Positions 53 through 8,981 of a stretch of DNA of 64,000 nucleotides are shown here, piece by piece. Within the stretch, counting starts at the first letter, position 1, and each line of letters begins with the position of its first letter. Below the pieces are notes generated by a model. The model was not told where the DNA came from. It saw nothing but the letters and a program-made list of their open reading frames with translations, and did no database searches. The position numbers were made by a program, and so were the translations under genes. This DNA is from Pistricoccus aurantiacus (GTDB lineage: Bacteria; Pseudomonadota; Gammaproteobacteria; Pseudomonadales; Halomonadaceae): assembly GCF_007954585.1 (NCBI RefSeq), contig NZ_CP042382.1:2728001-2792000 (forward strand), read 5' to 3'.

Positions 53-3000
53 ATGGCCCATCTGCTACGAATCGTGATGATCCACGGCCACCTCGAGGGC
101 GTGGTCGAACTCAGTGTCGACGGGCACACCAACATCTGCGGCACCAACGCCTCGGGCAAGACCACTCTGCAGCGATTGGTACCGGTATTCTATGGTGAGC
201 TCCCCAACAAGGTGGTGCCCAAGACGCGGATGAAGTTCGATGCCTTCTACCTGCCGCACCGTAATAGCTATCTGGTGTACGAGTATCGCCGCGAGGCGGG
301 CAATATCTGTCAGGCGGTGCTGACCCGCAAGAGCGAGGGTGGCGTGGAATACCGCTTCGTGGCGGCGCCCTACCGCCCGGAAAATTACCTGGTGGAGAGC
401 GATGCCGGCATGGCGGCGCTGGACTACAGCCAGTGGGCCAGCGGGCTGCGCCGCGAGGGGATCGGCGTGTCGTCCAAGCTGGGAGCCACGTCCGAGTACC
501 GTTCGGTGATTCAGAACGACTTCACCCAGCACCATGGCAGCAGAGGTGACGGCCTCAAACTGCGCCAGATCGCCGCCCAGTTCAGCCTGGTCAAGTCGGA
601 GCACCGCATCCGCCACATGGAGAAACTGGTCTCGGCGGTGCATGCCAAGGAGGGCAAGATGGACACCCTCAAGACCATGCTGGCGGCGATCTTCGAGGAA
701 GACGGCGTCGAACTGCCGGTTACCCGCATTCGCAATACCAAGGCCCGGGAGTGGATCGCGCAGATGCGCCAGTCCATGCGCCTCGAGCCACTGCAACAGA
801 TGCTGGGACGGTTGGATGATGTGGACAGGGAGATCGCCGACCTGGAGACGGCCCTGTGGCAGCTCAAGCCCCAGCTCGAGGCCGACCGCCATCGTGCCGA
901 ACGGACCCTGGCCGACGTCGAGGCGCGGCTGGGACGTCAGGAGTGCGAGTTCCAGGCCCAGGAGCAGGGCTACGTGAAGACACGGGATGCGCTCAACGAA
1001 CGCATCAGCGAACTGGACAGCGAGCTAGACCGTACTCGACGCGATCTCGACGATCTGCAAACCAGATACGAAGCATATGCCGAGGCGGACATGCCGGCGC
1101 TGGAACGCGATCTGAACGCCCTGCCCCAGTGGCGCGAGCAGTGCCAGCAGCTGCGTGAGCACCTTAGCGTCATACAACAGGCCGCCCAGGCCAGCCAGGC
1201 CCGGCTGGATGGCCGACTCAGGGAACTGGCCGACACCCTGGCCCGCCAAACCGAAGCGTCGCAAGGCCTGATCGACGGCCTGGGCGACGAGAAAACCACG
1301 TGCCGCGAGCGCCAGTGGGACGCCGAGCGCGCCCTGGACGAACGCTATCGCGCCGAGCACGCCGATCTGGACACCGCCTATCAGACCCGTATCGAGCAAG
1401 GCGTCGAGCGTCTGGCGGGACTCAAGGCACAGATGGCCTCCAGTGCCCAGACGCCGGAGGAGATCCAGGAAGCCGAGCTGGCCCAGGCGCGACTCGACCA
1501 GGCGCAAAGTGATCGCAATGCGGCTTCCACCTCTCTGCAGGGCGTGCGTGATGAGCACGAAACGCTGAAACGCGAGCGTGACGCCGCCGAACGTGGACTC
1601 GAGGAGGCACGCCATGAGCGTGCCCAGGCGGAGGGTCACCGCTATGCACTGTACCAGCAGCGCGACCCCGCCCAGGGCAGCCTGCGCCACTTTCTGCGCT
1701 ATCACCGCCCGGGATGGGAACAGCGGTTGGGCAAGGTGATCGCTCCCGAACTGCTGGAGCGCCGCGATCTCTCCCCCCAGCTCACGGAAGTGGAGCACGA
1801 CGCTCTCTTTGGCGTGACCCTCGATCTGGCCGCCATTTCGCTGCCGGATCATGCCCAGGATGAGGCGAGCCTGCTCGCGGCCATCGAGGCGGCCGAAGCG
1901 GCACACGCCCGGGCCGAGGGCAATGTTCAGGCCGCGGAAAAACGGCTCAAGGCGCGGCATGACCTTGTCAAGGAAGCCGACGAAACACTGCGGCAGTCGC
2001 GCAGCGCGTTCAAGCGTGCCGAGCAGGACGTGGAATACGCCACCCAGGCACGCAGCCAGCTGCAGGAGCGCCATACCCGGCAGCAGAAAGAGCGCCGCCG
2101 CGTCTGCGAAGAGGCGCTGGCAGCCGAGGAAGCGTCCCAGCAGGCATTACGCGATGAAAAGCGCGAGGCCTTGGAAACGCTTTCCGATACCCACCAGGCA
2201 CAGTTGCTGGAACTGAAGGCCGACGCTCAGAGCCAGCTGGATGGCCTCGACGCGCAAATCCGCCAGCACAAACGCCAACTCGACGACCTGAAGGCGGAGC
2301 ACCAGCGTCAGAAAGAAGAGCTGGAAGCCGCCTTCGATCAGGAACTGCAGGCGCAGGGGGTCGACGCGGTGACGCTGAAAGAGACCCGGTCACGCCTGAC
2401 CGCGCTGGAGGAACGTATCCGCACCACCGCGGCGCGCCAGGAGGAGCTCGAAGCCTACCTCCGCTTTATGCGCGTGGAGTGGGCTGAACGCAAGCCGCAG
2501 TTGGTGGACAAGGAGTCGACGCTTTCTCGTGACAAGCAGGCCGCCGAGCGGGAACGCGACCAGTGCCGGAACGACTTCCAGACGGCCAAGGCGAGACATC
2601 TGGAAACGGTCACTGAGCTGAAGGCCAAATGCGATGCCGAACAGCAGGTGATCGATGCCTTGAAGCCGCTGCTGACCCAGGTGGAGGGACTGGGACTGGC
2701 CGCCGCGCCCCAGCCGGTCGGCGAGGCGCCAGGCGATGTGCACGAGCGCATCGAACGTGCCCGCCAGGCAATGGAAAGCCGCAGCCGCGAACTCGAGACC
2801 CTGCGCAAGGGGTGTGAGCAGGTGGAAGGCGAATTGATCAAGGGGGGCAGCAGCGGCTTCGTCGAAACATTGGATGCCGAGCGGGCGAAGTTGACGGGGA
2901 ACGACGCCGAGCAGAACACCAGCCCTCGGCATCAGCTACTGCTGCTGCGCGGCATGCTCACGCTACTGGAGGACCAGCAGCAGCAGTTGATCCAGCAGGG

Positions 3001-3730
3001 CCGTAACCTCGGCGATGACCTGGACAAGTTCTTCACCGTCTTTCGCGACCTCAACCGCCGCATCAGCGCGCAGAGCCGCCGCCTTTCCGAGGAGGTTGCC
3101 GACGACCTGCGCCTCGAGGGAATCAGCAAGGCCGAGGTTCGCATCCAGTCCACCATCGACGAGCTGGGCTTCTGGGAGCCGCTGAAGCAGTTTGCCGAAT
3201 ACTTCCGGGCATGGCGCGGCGTGGGCCTCCCGAGTGACGACTATCTCAACGCCCTGGCCGATGTGGTGGATCTGCTGCGCAGCGACCAGCAGTACAGCTT
3301 CGAGAGTCTGCTGCGCTTGGAGCTGCAACTGAACGAGGGCGGCACCGATCTGGTGATCAAGAACGACCGCCAGTTGCTGGAGTCCTCCAGCCACGGCATG
3401 GCCTATCTGATCCTGTGCAAGTTCCTGCTCGCCTTTACCCGCTTGTTGCGCGGTCAGGCCGAGATCGCCATCCACTGGCCCATCGACGAGATCGGCACCC
3501 TGGCCTACCACAACGTGGAAAAGCTATTCGAGGCCTGCGACAGCAATCACATCCATGTCGTCGGAGCCTTCCCCAACCCCGAGTCGGATGTACTGCTGCT
3601 GTTCCACAATCGCTACCTGATCGACCGGGACGCAGGCCAGCCCAACCGTCGCCACCTGAAACGCATCGAGCCGCGCTTGAGCCGCCTGGCCCAACGCCTG
3701 CAGGCCCGCGCCGCCGAGGAGGTCTCCTGA
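53..3730 (+). CDS. jetC: Wadjet SMC-like ATPase JetC (MksB/MukB-like)
   Basis: Predicted motor subunit of a Wadjet/MksBEFG plasmid-defence condensin. In this family the SMC dimer extrudes DNA loops and the complex cleaves small circular DNA. The 1225-residue protein has a Walker A (GTNASGKTT, residues 30-38) in the N-terminal head. A very long Glu/Arg/Ala-rich coiled coil follows, interrupted around residues 540-610 by a non-coil stretch that may be the hinge. The C-terminal head has a signature-like SSSHGM (about 1111-1116) and a Walker B ending in D1145-E1146 (IHWPIDEIG). The start is the ATG after AAGGATCT. Its stop overlaps the start of the next gene (ATGA-type coupling). MukB is longer (about 1486 residues); this length suits JetC/MksB. 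The assignment to SMC-like is firm; the Wadjet assignment rests on the three partner genes. Confidence 0.88.
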   Translation: MAHLLRIVMIHGHLEGVVELSVDGHTNICGTNASGKTTLQRLVPVFYGELPNKVVPKTRMKFDAFYLPHRNSYLVYEYRREAGNICQAVLTRKSEGGVEYRFVAAPYRPENYLVESDAGMAALDYSQWASGLRREGIGVSSKLGATSEYRSVIQNDFTQHHGSRGDGLKLRQIAAQFSLVKSEHRIRHMEKLVSAVHAKEGKMDTLKTMLAAIFEEDGVELPVTRIRNTKAREWIAQMRQSMRLEPLQQMLGRLDDVDREIADLETALWQLKPQLEADRHRAERTLADVEARLGRQECEFQAQEQGYVKTRDALNERISELDSELDRTRRDLDDLQTRYEAYAEADMPALERDLNALPQWREQCQQLREHLSVIQQAAQASQARLDGRLRELADTLARQTEASQGLIDGLGDEKTTCRERQWDAERALDERYRAEHADLDTAYQTRIEQGVERLAGLKAQMASSAQTPEEIQEAELAQARLDQAQSDRNAASTSLQGVRDEHETLKRERDAAERGLEEARHERAQAEGHRYALYQQRDPAQGSLRHFLRYHRPGWEQRLGKVIAPELLERRDLSPQLTEVEHDALFGVTLDLAAISLPDHAQDEASLLAAIEAAEAAHARAEGNVQAAEKRLKARHDLVKEADETLRQSRSAFKRAEQDVEYATQARSQLQERHTRQQKERRRVCEEALAAEEASQQALRDEKREALETLSDTHQAQLLELKADAQSQLDGLDAQIRQHKRQLDDLKAEHQRQKEELEAAFDQELQAQGVDAVTLKETRSRLTALEERIRTTAARQEELEAYLRFMRVEWAERKPQLVDKESTLSRDKQAAERERDQCRNDFQTAKARHLETVTELKAKCDAEQQVIDALKPLLTQVEGLGLAAAPQPVGEAPGDVHERIERARQAMESRSRELETLRKGCEQVEGELIKGGSSGFVETLDAERAKLTGNDAEQNTSPRHQLLLLRGMLTLLEDQQQQLIQQGRNLGDDLDKFFTVFRDLNRRISAQSRRLSEEVADDLRLEGISKAEVRIQSTIDELGFWEPLKQFAEYFRAWRGVGLPSDDYLNALADVVDLLRSDQQYSFESLLRLELQLNEGGTDLVIKNDRQLLESSSHGMAYLILCKFLLAFTRLLRGQAEIAIHWPIDEIGTLAYHNVEKLFEACDSNHIHVVGAFPNPESDVLLLFHNRYLIDRDAGQPNRRHLKRIEPRLSRLAQRLQARAAEEVS

Positions 3731-4356
3731 TGATCGAACATGGCCCTTTGCTGGAACGGCTGTTGGCCGGGGAGTTCATCTGCGCGGTGAGCGACGAGAG
3801 CGCCTTTCGCCGGCTGGAGGATGAGCAAACCCGCGAGCAGATCGATACCTACCTGCGACCGCTCAACCGGCGATTGGCGTCCAACCCCGAGGGCAGCGTC
3901 TACTTCCTGGCCTGGCGGCAAATAAACGATAGCGCTCGCGACCAACTGTCACGTCAGCTCGGCGACACGCTGAACAGCCTGCTCCCCCTGCTGGAGTGGC
4001 TGCAGCTGGTTCAGGAAGCGCTGGGACGCGACGCCCTGCTCGCTCCCGGCGACGTGCTCAAGCCGGCGGAGTTCAGCGCCAAGTGCGAGGATAACCAGAG
4101 CCTGCGCGAGCGCTTGGAACGGCTGGCCACGGACAGTTTCTTCGGCTCCCAGAGTGAGCAGCTCGACGCCCAGATGAAGCAGGTCTTCAAGCGTCTAAAA
4201 GAGCACGGCTATCTGCTCCAGCCTCATGCTGAGCGCCAGGTTTATCTGGTTACCGGCAAGATCGACTACCTGGTAGACCTGGTGCGCTTCATCCGCGACG
4301 AGGAGAACCTGCCCGTCGACGAAGAGGGCCCGGCGACCCAGGAGGCCCTGTTGTGA
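3730..4356 (+). CDS. jetB: Wadjet JetB / MksE-like condensin subunit
   Basis: A 208-residue protein between the SMC-like ATPase and the kleisin-like gene, matching the position and size of MukE/MksE/JetB. In this family it is a winged-helix dimer that bridges kleisin and SMC heads. The sequence is charged and helical. The C-terminal part (residues about 140-185, with LKEHGYLL and RQVYLVTGKIDYLVDLVRFI) looks like a winged-helix module. The ATG at 3730 was chosen because it overlaps the jetC stop by one base and opens directly on MIEHGPLLERL; the upstream in-frame extension lies wholly inside jetC. No catalytic residues are expected. Confidence comes mainly from context. Confidence 0.8.
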   Translation: MIEHGPLLERLLAGEFICAVSDESAFRRLEDEQTREQIDTYLRPLNRRLASNPEGSVYFLAWRQINDSARDQLSRQLGDTLNSLLPLLEWLQLVQEALGRDALLAPGDVLKPAEFSAKCEDNQSLRERLERLATDSFFGSQSEQLDAQMKQVFKRLKEHGYLLQPHAERQVYLVTGKIDYLVDLVRFIRDEENLPVDEEGPATQEALL

Positions 4357-5612
4357 AAGGAGGAGTCGAGAGCGAGTCCCACGCTCTGGAGAGCCGCTTG
4401 ATCGCCACGGGTGTCGAGCGGATGGCATTGCTCGGCAAGCACGCCGATGCCTTGATGCAAGGCTATACCCGCGACGAGGTGCCGCTGGACACCTTGAGCG
4501 ACTCGGCGTTGCGCAAGCTGCTTGCAGCGCGCATCCTGTGGCGTCCCGATGAACACGGCGGTGTCAAGCTCGCCCCCAAGGTGCGCGAACTGATCGCCGA
4601 GATGCTCGCCGACGAGACCCGCCGCCATGTCAATGCGGATGTGGCCGAAACCCTGGAACTCCTGCGCGGCCTGGTGCAGAGCTATCGTGAGGCACGCAGC
4701 CACGGCGAGCACTGGCGACAGGAGCAGCAACTGCTGCGTCTGCGCCAGGAGGTGGATGACCTCAACGGCCGCTTTGCCGATGCCATCGACAGCCTCTGGC
4801 AGCGCTTCAACAGCGACTTCGGCTTCGTCAGCCGTCTCAACGACAAGATCCGCGAGAACGACCGGGCCCAGAAGCAGATCGTACGCTTGCTGGACGGACT
4901 GGCGCTGATCGACTTTGATGAATTGATCGAGCTGGTCGGCAGCGACGGTGCACTGCGCAAGCTGCTGATCAGTCAGCTGCAGCAGCAGCTCAGCCAGCAC
5001 TACACCAACCTGCGCGAAGTGCAGCACCGACTCACGGAACTGATGGCGCGTTTTCGCCAGCAGCAGTCGCGTAGCCGCCTGGTGGCGGGCATGGCCGCCT
5101 TCCTGCGCGAGCACCCCGGGTTTGTGCCCGGCAACTACGCCCGCCGCAGCGACGTTCCGGCACTGGTCAACCAGGCCACCCCGCTCATCGCCGCCGCCGC
5201 GCCGGCGCTTGACCGCCATCTGGATACTCAGGTACTCACCGAGCTGCTGCACCGGCTACCCGTGCCGGCACACAAGCCGCAGACGGTGGCTGCCGCGCAA
5301 CCCGCCGAGGCCCGGGAAGAAACCCTGGTCGCTGCCCGCCAGCAGGCCCTGAAGCAGGACGTGGAACGCTTCTACCTGACGGTGGTCGATCATCCCGACC
5401 GCGAGGGGATCAGTGCCCTGGCGTATCTGCACGCCGGCGATCTGGAGTGGGCGGATGAAATATGGCTATTCCAGGTGATCGCGGAATACCAGGGCCTGCC
5501 ACGCACCGAGCAGCGCGCCTTCCGCCTGCATCAGGAGGAGAGTCAGGCCAGCCGCTTCAATCACCTGCGGCTGATTCACGACGTCACGCTGCAGCTGGCG
5601 CTTCCAGCATGA
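4353..5612 (+). CDS. jetA: Wadjet JetA / MksF-like kleisin
   Basis: A 419-residue, largely alpha-helical protein in the place of the kleisin (MukF/MksF/JetA), which links the two SMC heads and binds JetB. The N-terminal 110 residues look like winged-helix segments (LRKLLAARILWRP). A helical, coiled-coil-rich middle follows (about 110-270). An Ala/Pro linker (about 310-330) leads to a C-terminal segment with LAYLHAGDLEWADEIWLFQ. It starts with GTG at 4353, overlapping the jetB stop (GTGA), and its own stop overlaps the next start (ATGA), so the operon is translationally coupled. Proteins like this are sometimes misnamed phosphoenolpyruvate carboxylase in databases; nothing here supports that enzyme. 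Confidence 0.78.
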   Translation: MKGGVESESHALESRLIATGVERMALLGKHADALMQGYTRDEVPLDTLSDSALRKLLAARILWRPDEHGGVKLAPKVRELIAEMLADETRRHVNADVAETLELLRGLVQSYREARSHGEHWRQEQQLLRLRQEVDDLNGRFADAIDSLWQRFNSDFGFVSRLNDKIRENDRAQKQIVRLLDGLALIDFDELIELVGSDGALRKLLISQLQQQLSQHYTNLREVQHRLTELMARFRQQQSRSRLVAGMAAFLREHPGFVPGNYARRSDVPALVNQATPLIAAAAPALDRHLDTQVLTELLHRLPVPAHKPQTVAAAQPAEAREETLVAARQQALKQDVERFYLTVVDHPDREGISALAYLHAGDLEWADEIWLFQVIAEYQGLPRTEQRAFRLHQEESQASRFNHLRLIHDVTLQLALPA

Positions 5613-6490
5613 CCCGCCCTCTCTCGCCCAGCGCTTACAGGCTATTGCGCTGCGTCGAGGAGACATTGCACCGTGTGCCCGCCGTGGGGAAACCGCGCAG
5701 TGGAAAGGCCCTGAAAGAGATCGAGGCCTGGTGCGCTCAGTACGACATAGACCTCGCTGTCTATCGCCAGGGCAATACGCTGCGCTTCGATCGCCGGCTG
5801 CTCGGCGAAATCAACGAGGTGCTGGACAGCCTGGGGCATCCGCCCCTCGATATCGCATTGAGTGGCCGCACGACCACGCAACAGGCCGAGCAAGGCGGGA
5901 TCGAGGCGAAGAGTGTACGCGAACGTCCCCGCACCAGGCGGGTACTGGCGAGCCTCCCAGCGCTGTCTCGGCCACCGTGGCTGGCCAGTGAATCCCGCGA
6001 GTACCGTGATCTCGATTGGCAGTCGCTGGATCTAGGCGGCTTCGACATCCTCATCCAAGTGGAAAATCTCGACAGCTTCTACGCCTTCACCCCCGATATC
6101 GAGGCCATCGACCGCTTTCGGCAGCCGCTGGTGATCTACCGTGGCGATCGCCACTACGGCGGGGGTTTCGCTGTGCTGGCCGAAACCTGGACGGCGACCG
6201 GCAAGCCGCACGTCTATCTGGGGGACTTCGATGCCGCCGGTATTACGTTTGCCATTGCCAGCCAAGCGACGCATTTGCTTCTGCCACCGCTGGAGTGGCT
6301 CATTCACCACGCCACCGCCGATCATCTGCCGGCCACTCAGATGAAGGCGCAAGCCTCGCTTCTTGAACACCGCGCAGCGCTGTCCAGCGACCACCCGTTG
6401 CGCGACTATCTGGCGATTATTCTCGACCGGCAGCGCGGACTCAGGCAACAGTGGTTTGGTGAGAGATTGGAAAGGGTGCCGCTTGGCTAA
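5609..6490 (+). CDS. jetD: Wadjet JetD / MksG-like Toprim nuclease subunit
   Basis: A 293-residue protein ending the coupled four-gene operon. JetD is the topoisomerase VI-like nuclease subunit that cuts DNA when the SMC complex stalls on small circles. The C-terminal half shows a Toprim pattern: an acidic residue after a hydrophobic strand (ILIQVENLDSF, E152), then YLGDFDAAG with D206 and D208 giving the DxD pair. The N-terminal 140 residues are basic and probably form the DNA-binding arm. It is shorter than the roughly 390 residues typical of JetD. The ATG at 5609 overlaps the jetA stop. Immediately after the stop lies an unrelated efflux-gene tail, so this is the right edge of the cassette. 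Confidence 0.82.
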   Translation: MTRPLSPSAYRLLRCVEETLHRVPAVGKPRSGKALKEIEAWCAQYDIDLAVYRQGNTLRFDRRLLGEINEVLDSLGHPPLDIALSGRTTTQQAEQGGIEAKSVRERPRTRRVLASLPALSRPPWLASESREYRDLDWQSLDLGGFDILIQVENLDSFYAFTPDIEAIDRFRQPLVIYRGDRHYGGGFAVLAETWTATGKPHVYLGDFDAAGITFAIASQATHLLLPPLEWLIHHATADHLPATQMKAQASLLEHRAALSSDHPLRDYLAIILDRQRGLRQQWFGERLERVPLG

Positions 6491-6863: not shown

Positions 6864-7136
6864 TTAGCGTTGGTCGTAGTGGCCACCGATGGCGAAAATA
6901 TAAATGTATCTTTCGTCGAACCGGTATATGAGCCTATCCCTCTGTGAAATACGCCTGGCCCATAAGCCCGACAGGCTGTGTTTAAGCGGCTCTGGTTTTC
7001 CGAGACCAGTTGATGGGTCTTCAGACCGAAGCATTTCTTTCAGCAGCTTGCAGAGCGCTTTGTGCAGGTTCTTGTCCTTCTCACGCATTTTTTCATACGC
7101 TTCCCAAGTGTTGCCCTCAAATACCAGTGATCTCAT
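6864..7136 (-). CDS. yoeB: YoeB-family toxin (ribosome-dependent mRNA interferase)
   Basis: A 90-residue Txe/YoeB family protein. The family cleaves mRNA in the ribosomal A site and is neutralised by YefM. The expected features are present: an early WEAYEKMREKDKNLHKALCKLL helix region, the middle GKPEPLKHSLSGLWARRI block, and the C-terminal DRLIYRFDERYIYIFAIGGHYDQR. The catalytic-type Glu (E72 region), Arg and the C-terminal His-Tyr pair are all retained, so the toxin looks intact. Its ATG lies inside the 3' end of the antitoxin gene (20-bp overlap), the usual YefM-YoeB arrangement. It lies between mobile-element remnants and is probably acquired. Confidence 0.92.
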   Translation of the reverse strand: MRSLVFEGNTWEAYEKMREKDKNLHKALCKLLKEMLRSEDPSTGLGKPEPLKHSLSGLWARRISQRDRLIYRFDERYIYIFAIGGHYDQR

Positions 7137-7389
7137 TCATCTGCTCGTCGGTGGGTGTGTACCCATGGCCACGGGTGTGGGTGTCGAGGGAGGCCGCAAT
7201 CTGTTGCATCAGATCCCGACTCTGAAGAACATGCAGTGTTTCCTGCTCTCTTTCCCAGTCCTCAGCACTCACGACCACAAATGCTGCTCCTGCGCGACGC
7301 GTCACCTTGAGGGGTTCATGCCTACTGACAACCTGCTCCACAAGACTTTTCAGGTTGTCTCTGAACTTGTTTACACTGATAACATCCAT
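7117..7389 (-). CDS. yefM: YefM/Phd-family antitoxin
   Basis: A 90-residue antitoxin upstream of and overlapping yoeB. It begins MDVISVNKFRDNLKSLVEQV, the Phd/YefM DNA-binding fold, and includes PLKVTRRAGAAFVVVSAEDW, the conserved strand pair of this family. The C-terminal acidic tail (residues about 60-90) would wrap the toxin. A longer in-frame start exists at 7422, but MDVISVN is the typical family start and the upstream extension covers the putative operator, so ATG 7389 was chosen. YefM normally represses its own promoter together with YoeB; a candidate operator lies just upstream. Confidence 0.9.
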   Translation of the reverse strand: MDVISVNKFRDNLKSLVEQVVSRHEPLKVTRRAGAAFVVVSAEDWEREQETLHVLQSRDLMQQIAASLDTHTRGHGYTPTDEQMNEITGI

Positions 7390-7403
7390 AATTTCACCAT
7401 TAC

Positions 7404-7451
7404 GTACGGAGATGCCGTACAACTATATCGCAATGCTCCCGACAAGACCAA
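7404..7451 (-). promoter_or_regulatory. Putative yefM promoter and operator
   Basis: Reading the minus strand, TTGGTC (7451-7446) is followed after 18 bases by TATAGT (7427-7422), a fair sigma-70 promoter. Immediately downstream is an inverted repeat, GTACGG (7420-7415) and CCGTAC (7409-7404), ending 14 bases before the yefM ATG. YefM-YoeB complexes elsewhere bind short palindromes with GTAC-like cores overlapping their promoter. The operator role is therefore a reasonable inference, not shown. Confidence 0.5.
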
Positions 7452-7533: not shown

Positions 7534-8981
7534 TACTACGGTTGTAGATAAACGCTATACTTTGTTGGTCACCTAATCGTGAGTGAGGTATGCCATGCTG
7601 AATGACCTCCTGACCCCTGAGGGTCTGCGTGAGCAAGCCCATGTCTGGGAATCGGAACTGTCTTCCTGGGTGGCGGAACTGGGCGGTTATGTCAAGCGTG
7701 CCGAGGCAAGAGAACGCCTGGGTGCGTATCTGCGCGGCTTGCTGGGAGACATCGAACGACGCAACAGCTGGCAACTGGCCGAGCACCAGGGCGACACACG
7801 CCCCTACGGCTTCCAGCATCTGATCAACCGCGCTCGCTGGGACGAAGACGGGGCCCGCGATGCCGTACAACAACGCGTCTACCAGGCCTTGCGCGATGAT
7901 GATGGGGTGCTGGTGGTCGATGAGACGGGATTCCTCAAGAAGGGCCGGCATTCGGCAGGCGTCAAGCGCCAGTACAGCGGGACCGCCGGCCGGATCGAAA
8001 ACTGTCAGATCGGCGTGTTTCTCGGTTATGCCAGCTGCTGGGGTCAGGGCCTGATCGATCGCACTCTGTTCCTTCCTCGGGATTGGGCAGAGGATCGCAA
8101 ACGCTGCCGCCAGGCGGGCATTCCCGAGACGGTGGGTCACAAGCCCAAGACGGCACTGGCCCGGGACATGCTGGTCCATGCGCTGGACAGCGGGGTTACG
8201 GCCCGCTGGGTGACAGGCGATGCCGTTTATGGCGAGTCCTTTCAGCTACGCTGGGCCCTGGAGGAACGCGACCAGGGCTACGTGATGGCGGTCAGCCGCA
8301 AGACCCATGTGTGGCGGGGACTGGAGCAACGCAAGGTCGGTGATCTGCTGACGGTATTGCAGGAGAATGCCGAGTTCGACTGGACCCGGCTTAGCGCGGG
8401 CGCCGGGAGCCAGGGACCGCGGCTGTCTGACTGGGCGTTTCTGGCCATCAATCCGGGGCCATTCCAAGGGTGGTAGCGTGGGGTGTTGGTACGGCGCTCT
8501 CTGGAGGATAAGCGGGCGATGACGGCATACCTCACTTTCGCCCCCGAGGGCACGTCACTGGCGGATCTGACGTTGGCCGCCGGGGCGCGGTGGAATATCG
8601 AGCGCTGTTTCCAGGAGAGCAAGTCCCAACTGGGCCTGGATCAGTATGAAGTACGGACGTGGACAGGCTGGCATCGTCATATCACGCGGGTGATGGCCGC
8701 CTATGCCTTGCTGGTCACGCTGCGCCGTCGCCAGTTGAAAAAAAGCCTGTTGCTGAGCCTGGGTGGGCAAGGCCCGTGGTCCTCTCTCTGGCCGAAATGC
8801 GGCGATGGCTGTGTCTCACTGCCGTTGCCTGGCGACGACGAGGAATTGAGAGTGTCCTGCGCTGGTCCCTCTGGCGTCGGTGGCATCAGCGCATCGCCCA
8901 GTATCATCACTGGGTGAGACGACAGCGGGCAATAGGGACCGTGGTATCCATGCCGCTCAGCGATTATCTGCAACTGTAGTA
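7534..8981 (+). mobile_element. IS701-family insertion sequence, 1448 bp, transposase broken
   Basis: The ends are inverted repeats: TACTACGGTTGTAGATAA at 7534-7551 and TTATCTGCAACTGTAGTA at 8964-8981, matching at 16 of 18 positions. The element is flanked on both sides by CTAA (7530-7533 and 8982-8985). This 4-bp duplication fits the YTAR-type targets reported for IS701-family elements. Inside is one transposase gene on the + strand with a stop codon and a frameshift. The right repeat contains the transposase stop. The element lies between the yefM promoter and the AEC transporter gene. Confidence 0.88.
7583..8979 (+). pseudogene. IS701-family DDE transposase, disrupted
   Basis: The reading frame opens at ATG 7583 (MLNDLLTPEG) and shows the IS701/DDE motifs: VLVVDETGFLKKG (first Asp), WVTGDAVYG (second Asp) and ARWNIERCFQESKSQLGLDQY (Glu). 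It carries two lesions. A TAG at 8474-8476 stands between GPFQGW and RGVLVRRS in the same frame, where a Trp codon (TGG) would be expected. A frame change near 8775 follows: the frame before it reads LSLGGQGP and the one after reads VVLSLAEMRRWL, consistent with loss of one G. The C-terminus (SMPLSDYLQL) ends inside the right inverted repeat. The element is unlikely to move unless complemented by a related transposase. Confidence 0.87.

Follow-up and report, generated by a model that had tools for sequence, protein, structure and literature searches.

What kind of machine is encoded by an operon that carries the subunit kinds of a Wadjet plasmid-defence system in reversed core order? The operon in question occupies positions 53–6490 (+ strand) of a 64,000-nt stretch of Pistricoccus aurantiacus (NZ_CP042382.1, assembly GCF_007954585.1, positions 2,728,001–2,792,000), the whole of which is referred to here as the window. 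Its four genes are coupled by overlaps of 1–4 bases and run jetC-jetB-jetA-jetD (C-B-A-D), i.e. an SMC ATPase, a MksE-like KITE protein, a probable kleisin and a Toprim nuclease (Table 1). A preliminary description of this DNA had suggested that the arrangement could mark a distinct Wadjet subtype with a different substrate preference. The most striking feature of the family is the repeated absence of the nuclease from an intact motor under selection, rather than the gene order. We consider it likely (probability of roughly 0.7) that the operon encodes a loop-extruding nuclease, a divergent member of the Wadjet/MksBEFG group, the motor of which would also have a nuclease-independent function.

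The loci analysed number 69 (Halomonas sp. LBP4, eight plasmids of 107–904 kb from Gamma- and Betaproteobacteria, 59 genome loci and the window), all with recognisable C, B and A genes. The reversed core order is genuine and conserved, being C-B-A in 69/69 of these fetched loci, which were found via the window proteins, a KITE profile from C-B-A loci, DUF3584 or DUF7281, such that relatives with other orders could be missed. That JetD stays last, as the preliminary description had it, holds where the gene is present (directly after C-B-A in 51 loci) and fails in the other 18, from which it is absent. The ATPase residues of the Walker A, signature and Walker B motifs (Table 1) are invariant in every SMC protein, including those of the 18 JetD-less loci, and the Toprim residues E152, D206 and D208 in every JetD. 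Among the other Halomonadaceae, 40 of the 44 genomes matching the KITE profile were fetched (G779, G777, G785 and G767 were left out); the genomes with weaker DUF7281 matches (G009, G150, G151, G209 and G233) were also left out, and L141 (G038) was dropped as its contig starts just before JetD. In L116 (8717–9989) jetA is split into two open reading frames (ORFs) with the other three genes intact, and this locus was left out of the JetA protein sets and length counts.

The JetD-less loci (10 of 42 in the Halomonadaceae and 8 from other families) possess an SMC-KITE-(probable) kleisin core without nuclease, as do the MksBEF/MukBEF condensins. Two possible causes of this absence were considered and rejected. 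A JetD encoded elsewhere was ruled out by a profile search that found none anywhere in the 18 genomes and was positive in 5/5 JetD-bearing control genomes; as for an assembly gap, G765 and G791 are single-contig assemblies and the flanks are contiguous. In the Halomonadaceae, the DNA past the gap matches the DNA past jetD of a JetD-bearing relative in 9 of the 10 JetD-less loci, the remaining locus (L112) sharing no flank with the relative compared. Three of these loci exhibit jetD-sized gaps against close JetD-bearing sisters (L086/L083, L090/L084 and L094/L093), with collinear flanks that are mostly 91–97% identical on the upstream side. For L086 and L083, the final 60 bases of jetA are 97% identical, the match resumes at 92% just past the jetD of L083, and the upstream 6 kb are collinear. 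Stubs of jetD of ∼40 codons are retained in L090 and L091, and shorter ones in L094 and L088. On the Halomonadaceae tree (41 rows, 10 JetD-less) the JetD state requires seven changes, six of which are forced by starred branches (6–7 over bootstraps), and on a quick tree of all 69 rows, which carries a long-branch warning, it requires 10 changes, nine of them forced. A tree alone cannot distinguish gain from loss of JetD; because of the jetD stubs and the shared chromosomal position, the absences in Halomonadaceae are best read as repeated deletions, the direction being our inference. Whether a deletion is shared was judged by its breakpoints; L087, L088 and L092 agree with the tree only in part. 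Outside the Halomonadaceae, L124 alone of the JetD-less loci compared shares its downstream flank with JetD-bearing relatives; for L127, L129, L132 and L134 no common flank was seen in the relatives chosen, and the comparison did not extend to L128, L130 and L131. A horizontal regain of JetD was also considered and rejected in view of the stubs, the correlation of JetC with JetD distances (Spearman 0.83; 0.93 for JetC with JetA) and the nearest neighbours of L093, which are L083 and L105 for both proteins.

The C-B-A core of the JetD-less loci is under strong purifying selection, as indicated by pairwise Nei-Gojobori ratios of non-synonymous to synonymous substitution rates (dN/dS). In the five unsaturated pairs of nine JetD-less pairs, dN/dS of C, B and A is 0–0.07 (the other four are saturated and give no ratio). 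For the two JetD-less pairs with a common breakpoint, L087-L092 and L090-L091, the respective ratios are 0.054 and 0.068 for JetC, 0.030 and 0.043 for JetB, and 0.033 and 0.036 for JetA, at dS of 0.24–0.40. These core values lie within the range of JetD-bearing pairs; JetD itself gives 0.13–0.24 and is above the core in 9 of 10 JetD-bearing pairs, the exception being the nearly identical L082-L085. The C, B and A genes are full length in 18/18 JetD-less loci, also across deeply diverged genomes (L127–L132).

In the reading favoured here, JetC, JetB and JetA would form an ATP-driven DNA loop extruder to which the Toprim nuclease JetD would be coupled as the cutting subunit. The target would most likely be small circular plasmids, cut once extrusion is complete, by analogy with type I Wadjet, for which extrusion followed by cutting of circular plasmids is described in two papers (PMC10586767, PMC12287153). 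The complex of the window is probably an active plasmid-restricting machine at what would be the ancestral chromosomal site, because all of its catalytic motifs are intact. The core would also function without JetD, presumably in chromosome or replicon organisation, since relatives appear to have lost jetD several times while strong purifying selection maintained their C-B-A genes. A further-reaching version, which we put forward tentatively and hold to be a little short of even odds, is that this is a Wadjet branch with a detachable nuclease effector and a core with a chromosomal function of its own, in which defence complexes would have become nuclease-free condensins several times within one family.

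Several observations weigh against this interpretation. The preference for loss over gain of JetD hangs on the stubs and on position, and purifying selection leaves the role of the core unspecified. The nearest neighbours of JetC and JetD agree in only 30/50 loci, and the window JetD (5609–6490) is nearest to that of L001 (7995–8870), the window SMC being nearest to those of L085, L082 and L084; JetD is hence not fully congruent with the core, and an exchange of JetD between loci, hinted at by the window and L001, may have taken place. The window operon lies beside metabolic genes and not in a defence island. Profile searches between the C-B-A family and type I found no JetA match in either direction. 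AlphaFold2 models of JetD and JetA, built on two-sequence alignments (window and L001), are poor (predicted local distance difference test of 39.8 and 43.9, respectively). Searches of the PDB with the family profiles reached no Jet subunit (the presence of type II structures in the copy used being unchecked), and the sole plausible match of the JetD profile was the Toprim domain of Topo VI A (E 0.1).

Of the four subunits, the third is the weakest assignment. The preliminary description had named all four; the SMC, the MksE-like protein and the Toprim JetD are upheld by Pfam and by hhalign, whereas the kleisin is no more than probable, its identity being inferred from where the gene lies and from a weak profile similarity to JetA of type I (hhalign probability 20.6, E 0.0011). 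The protein (419 residues) has no Pfam family above the cut-off, and no PADLOC family was found for the kleisin-like proteins of 10/10 members of the C-B-A family. At 402–460 residues, JetA of the family is shorter than that of type I (472–577 residues). The remainder of the description of the four coupled genes is borne out by the coordinates, the overlaps, the Pfam matches of three of the four proteins and the intact motifs, which are invariant among relatives. The window operon thus contains the SMC, the KITE and the Toprim nuclease (E plus DxD) of the broad Wadjet/MksBEFG group. TOP6A/Spo11 Toprim matches occur in 2/10 JetD members of the family, and in the whole P. aurantiacus genome (one contig, 3.78 Mb) DUF3584 is matched once, by the window SMC.

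The rival that survives best, although we judge it unlikely, is that the operon is primarily a MksBEF-type chromosomal condensin of which JetD is a readily lost accessory, with plasmid defence secondary or absent in Halomonadaceae. In agreement with a condensin, the KITE profile matches 45/121 genomes of Halomonadaceae, the chromosomal sites are shared, the neighbours in the window genome are metabolic, JetD is missing in 10/42 Halomonadaceae loci with the core conserved, and dN/dS of JetD is above that of the core. A role of Pseudomonas aeruginosa MksBEF in chromosome organisation is likewise described (PMC7485682). These points are offset by the retention of JetD in 51/69 loci with invariant Toprim residues, and by the occurrence of the operon on large plasmids and, beside a WYL gene, within a Tn7-like element, which fits defence. 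Furthermore, each of 40 genomes examined, whether it carries the operon or lacks it, already has SMC over the cut-off (MukB in none), and 76/121 Halomonadaceae genomes lack a match, so the operon is not essential. The likeness to MksBEF of P. aeruginosa and to MukBEF is confined to the nuclease-free core of the 18 loci: the order of E. coli mukFEB (kleisin-KITE-SMC) is the reverse of that of the C-B-A family and, unlike MksBEF/MukBEF, several JetD-less C-B-A loci are close sisters of JetD-bearing ones.

A reading of the operon as a standard Wadjet of type I, II or III whose genes have been shuffled is improbable. The four subunit kinds are the same, as are the Toprim catalytic residues, and weak PADLOC matches are found to JetC1, JetC3, JetD1, JetD2 and JetD3. 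For comparison with type I, 26 places were assembled (20 from a JetC1 search, four from a JetD3 search and two plasmid loci), with genes assigned by size and position, or by annotation in the two plasmid loci, and with type I identity confirmed by PADLOC for eight JetC proteins and one further JetC/JetD pair; the JetC1 model PDLC00504 matched 49/229 class genomes, many of them weakly. Order was A-B-C(-D) in all 19 places showing three core genes, as opposed to C-B-A(-D) in the fetched loci. The window SMC matches the JetC1 model at 19.1 bits over residues 1–42 rather than over its full length, whereas 8/8 type I JetC proteins score at least 733.8 bits with their best JetC1 model. The JetD3 match of the window is 16.9 bits, and since an LmuB model reaches 20.3 bits with the window SMC, such PADLOC scores are near background. 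No Jet match was obtained among the PADLOC models for the window KITE and kleisin-like proteins. In the SMC tree, 33 C-B-A proteins lie on one side of a branch with a Shimodaira–Hasegawa-like approximate likelihood ratio test (SH-aLRT) value of 81, which is not starred; another branch (99) holds the 21 type I proteins together, and the two sets are separated by long branches. Persicobacter groups with the C-B-A proteins, and the long branch of E. coli MukB has an uncertain placement between the two sets. The expected clustering of the C-B-A loci apart from type I is therefore seen in JetC. Profile–profile comparison of the two sets gives matches for SMC, KITE and JetD (Table 1), with off-diagonal and control pairs below 5. 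In plain profile searches SMC and JetD match (E values reach 3.8e-11 when type I JetC proteins are searched with the C-B-A JetC profile, and 4.6e-10 when C-B-A JetD proteins are searched with the type I JetD profile), and KITE does so in two proteins.

The comparison with types II and III was made at the level of PADLOC profiles alone. Among 10 members of the family, matches to the JetC2/C3 and JetD2/D3 models were absent or marginal, and none was strong: the best were JetC3 at 7e-07, JetD3 at 1.6e-06 and JetD2 at 2.6e-05, each seen in 2–3 of the 10. A scan with the JetC3 model matched 97/319 genomes, the best reaching 36.1 bits across a portion of the model; we presume these matches to be coiled-coil background. 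The idea of a distinct subtype consequently stands with respect to type I (tree, order and marginal PADLOC matches) and is tentative with respect to types II and III, to which the operon might still belong. Because the PADLOC models match only marginally, the operon is classed by sequence as a divergent Wadjet/MksBEFG branch rather than type I.

JetD is indeed short, as had been noted: 293 residues in the window and 274–334 in the family (median 291, n = 50), against 375–439 in type I (median 400, n = 13), a difference of ∼110 residues between medians. In the alignment, the Toprim core begins at about position 139 of the family profile and 254 of the type I profile, which suggests that the missing part is mainly N-terminal; the DUF3322 N-terminus expected of type I JetD (∼375–440 residues) was absent from the window protein and from 10 members. 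A short JetD is not confined to the reversed order, and the two traits are separable, because a related plasmid system of Persicobacter (Bacteroidota; L208, 6272–12556) pairs a JetD of 285 residues with the order A-B-C-D. Its SMC, JetD and KITE proteins match the family profiles at 367.5, 50.3 and 37.6 bits, respectively, the kleisin-like protein has no match to the family profile, and PADLOC models match the system only marginally. In Bacteroides finegoldii, kleisin- and KITE-sized genes precede the SMC gene, with the KITE and SMC matched by family profiles.

A reading of the JetD-less loci as defence systems in decay, on their way to loss rather than functional, has a similarly small probability. 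Decay would account for the missing JetD, for the 76/121 Halomonadaceae genomes without a match and for the split jetA of L116, a JetD-bearing locus; it is opposed by the full-length C, B and A genes with ATPase motifs in 18/18 JetD-less loci, by dN/dS of 0.03–0.07 in the two common-breakpoint pairs, and by the intact cores across deeply diverged genomes. A Lamassu/Rad50-like system in place of an SMC-kleisin-KITE complex, suggested by LmuB matches to the SMC that are about as weak as those of JetC1, is rejected as very improbable, as LmuB models also match true JetC (7/8 type I proteins at 24–38 bits, which looks like ATPase/coiled-coil background) and MksE-like and Topo VI-type Toprim subunits are present.

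With respect to genomic context, Halomonadaceae loci share flanks in upstream groups of 12, 10 and 8 and in downstream groups of 10, 9 (window included) and 7. Upstream of the window operon are genes that, from their translations, we take to encode transport proteins, dehydrogenases and a kinase-like protein. The kinase-like gene (L212, 10132–12009) lies 43 bases upstream of jetC and is found upstream of the operon in eight relatives, three of them JetD-less. Because of these common flanks and the shared kinase-like gene, the Halomonadaceae operon seems to be chromosomal and vertically inherited; elsewhere it occurs on large plasmids and once in a Tn7-like element. Downstream in the window (6864–7422, − strand) is a pair of small ORFs (90 and 101 residues) that overlap and resemble a RelE/YoeB-type toxin with its antitoxin. 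A transposase-like reading at 7583–8917 is split into two ORFs, and the segment 7530–7600 recurs at two other places in the genome (99% and 81%).

Beyond the Halomonadaceae, the KITE profile matched 9/369 genomes of the class, and DUF3584 was over the cut-off in 18/349 genomes of the phylum. Of 45 matching plasmid records, 15 were inspected, of which 12 are C-B-A-D (one with a broken jetC), one has a jetC fragment and two, from Bacteroidota, are A-B-C. Going by annotation, this arrangement of four genes recurs in four more plasmids beyond the 69 loci, the jetC of one being broken. A tblastn search with the window JetD gave no match in plasmids. In the Enterobacter hormaechei IncC plasmid (L210, 8983–16733), C-B-A-D lies within the Tn7-like element adjoining the WYL gene, and by annotation its jetC is interrupted by an IS256-type element. 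A jetC fragment of 221 residues adjoins an IS630-type element in L023 (6989–7654), and 13 listed enterobacterial plasmids give an equal score over one and the same stretch of 211 residues. Scans of viral contigs gave one jetC-like fragment, two further scans being without relatives; in a viral-collection contig (L029, 1190–3763) the jetC N-terminus continues in frame into helicase-like sequence.

Table 1. Genes and motifs of the window operon, with the evidence for each assignment.
Feature	Position	Strand	Evidence
jetC/mksB-like SMC ATPase (DUF3584), 1225 aa	53-3730	+	PF12128 761.6 bits, full length; hhalign 98.6 vs type I JetC
Walker A GTNASGKT, residues 30-37	140-163	+	G30, N32, G35, K36 invariant in 69/69 loci
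ABC signature SSHGM, residues 1112-1116	3386-3400	+	S1113, G1115 invariant in 69/69
Walker B D-E, residues 1145-1146	3485-3490	+	invariant in 69/69
jetB/mksE-like KITE subunit, 208 aa	3730-4356	+	PF21980 MksE 36.3 bits (cut-off 27); hhalign 89.4 vs type I JetB
jetA/mksF-like probable kleisin, 419 aa, GTG start	4353-5612	+	position in 69/69 loci; weak type I JetA match
jetD/mksG-like Toprim nuclease, 293 aa	5609-6490	+	PF23947 DUF7281 41.3 bits (cut-off 27); hhalign 96.3 vs type I JetD, Toprim core
Toprim E152-N153	6062-6067	+	invariant in 51/51 JetD
Toprim DxD (D206, D208)	6224-6232	+	invariant in 51/51 JetD

The C-B-A family is a real, conserved and divergent branch of a known kind (Wadjet/MksBEFG). 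In the literature, types I–III are said to differ in operon organisation (PMC12647877), the mksFEBG order is described as conserved in Gram-negatives such as Pseudomonas (PMC10123090), and a survey of the Wadjet group (Burmann et al. 2025; PMC7617805) reports several members without MksG/JetD. No description of the C-B-A family was found in the literature searched, mostly open papers with preprints outside its scope, and the clade may already stand in the operon list (Data S1) of that survey. As the family is nearly invisible to the protein models of PADLOC 2.0.0 (system rules not applied), counts of plasmid defence in proteobacteria may be incomplete. A descent of MukBEF and MksBEF from a plasmid-destroying Wadjet that lost its nuclease has so far only been proposed, a review suggesting that MksBEF condensins arose via loss of JetD (PMC10586767). 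In the present family, JetD losses appear between sister species: in the pairs L086/L083, L090/L084 and L094/L093 the nuclease is present in one member and missing from the other, which makes the defence-to-condensin proposal testable at this level. If JetD is a detachable effector, these loci would provide naturally occurring pairs of close relatives in which the proposed transition from defence complex to condensin could be followed.

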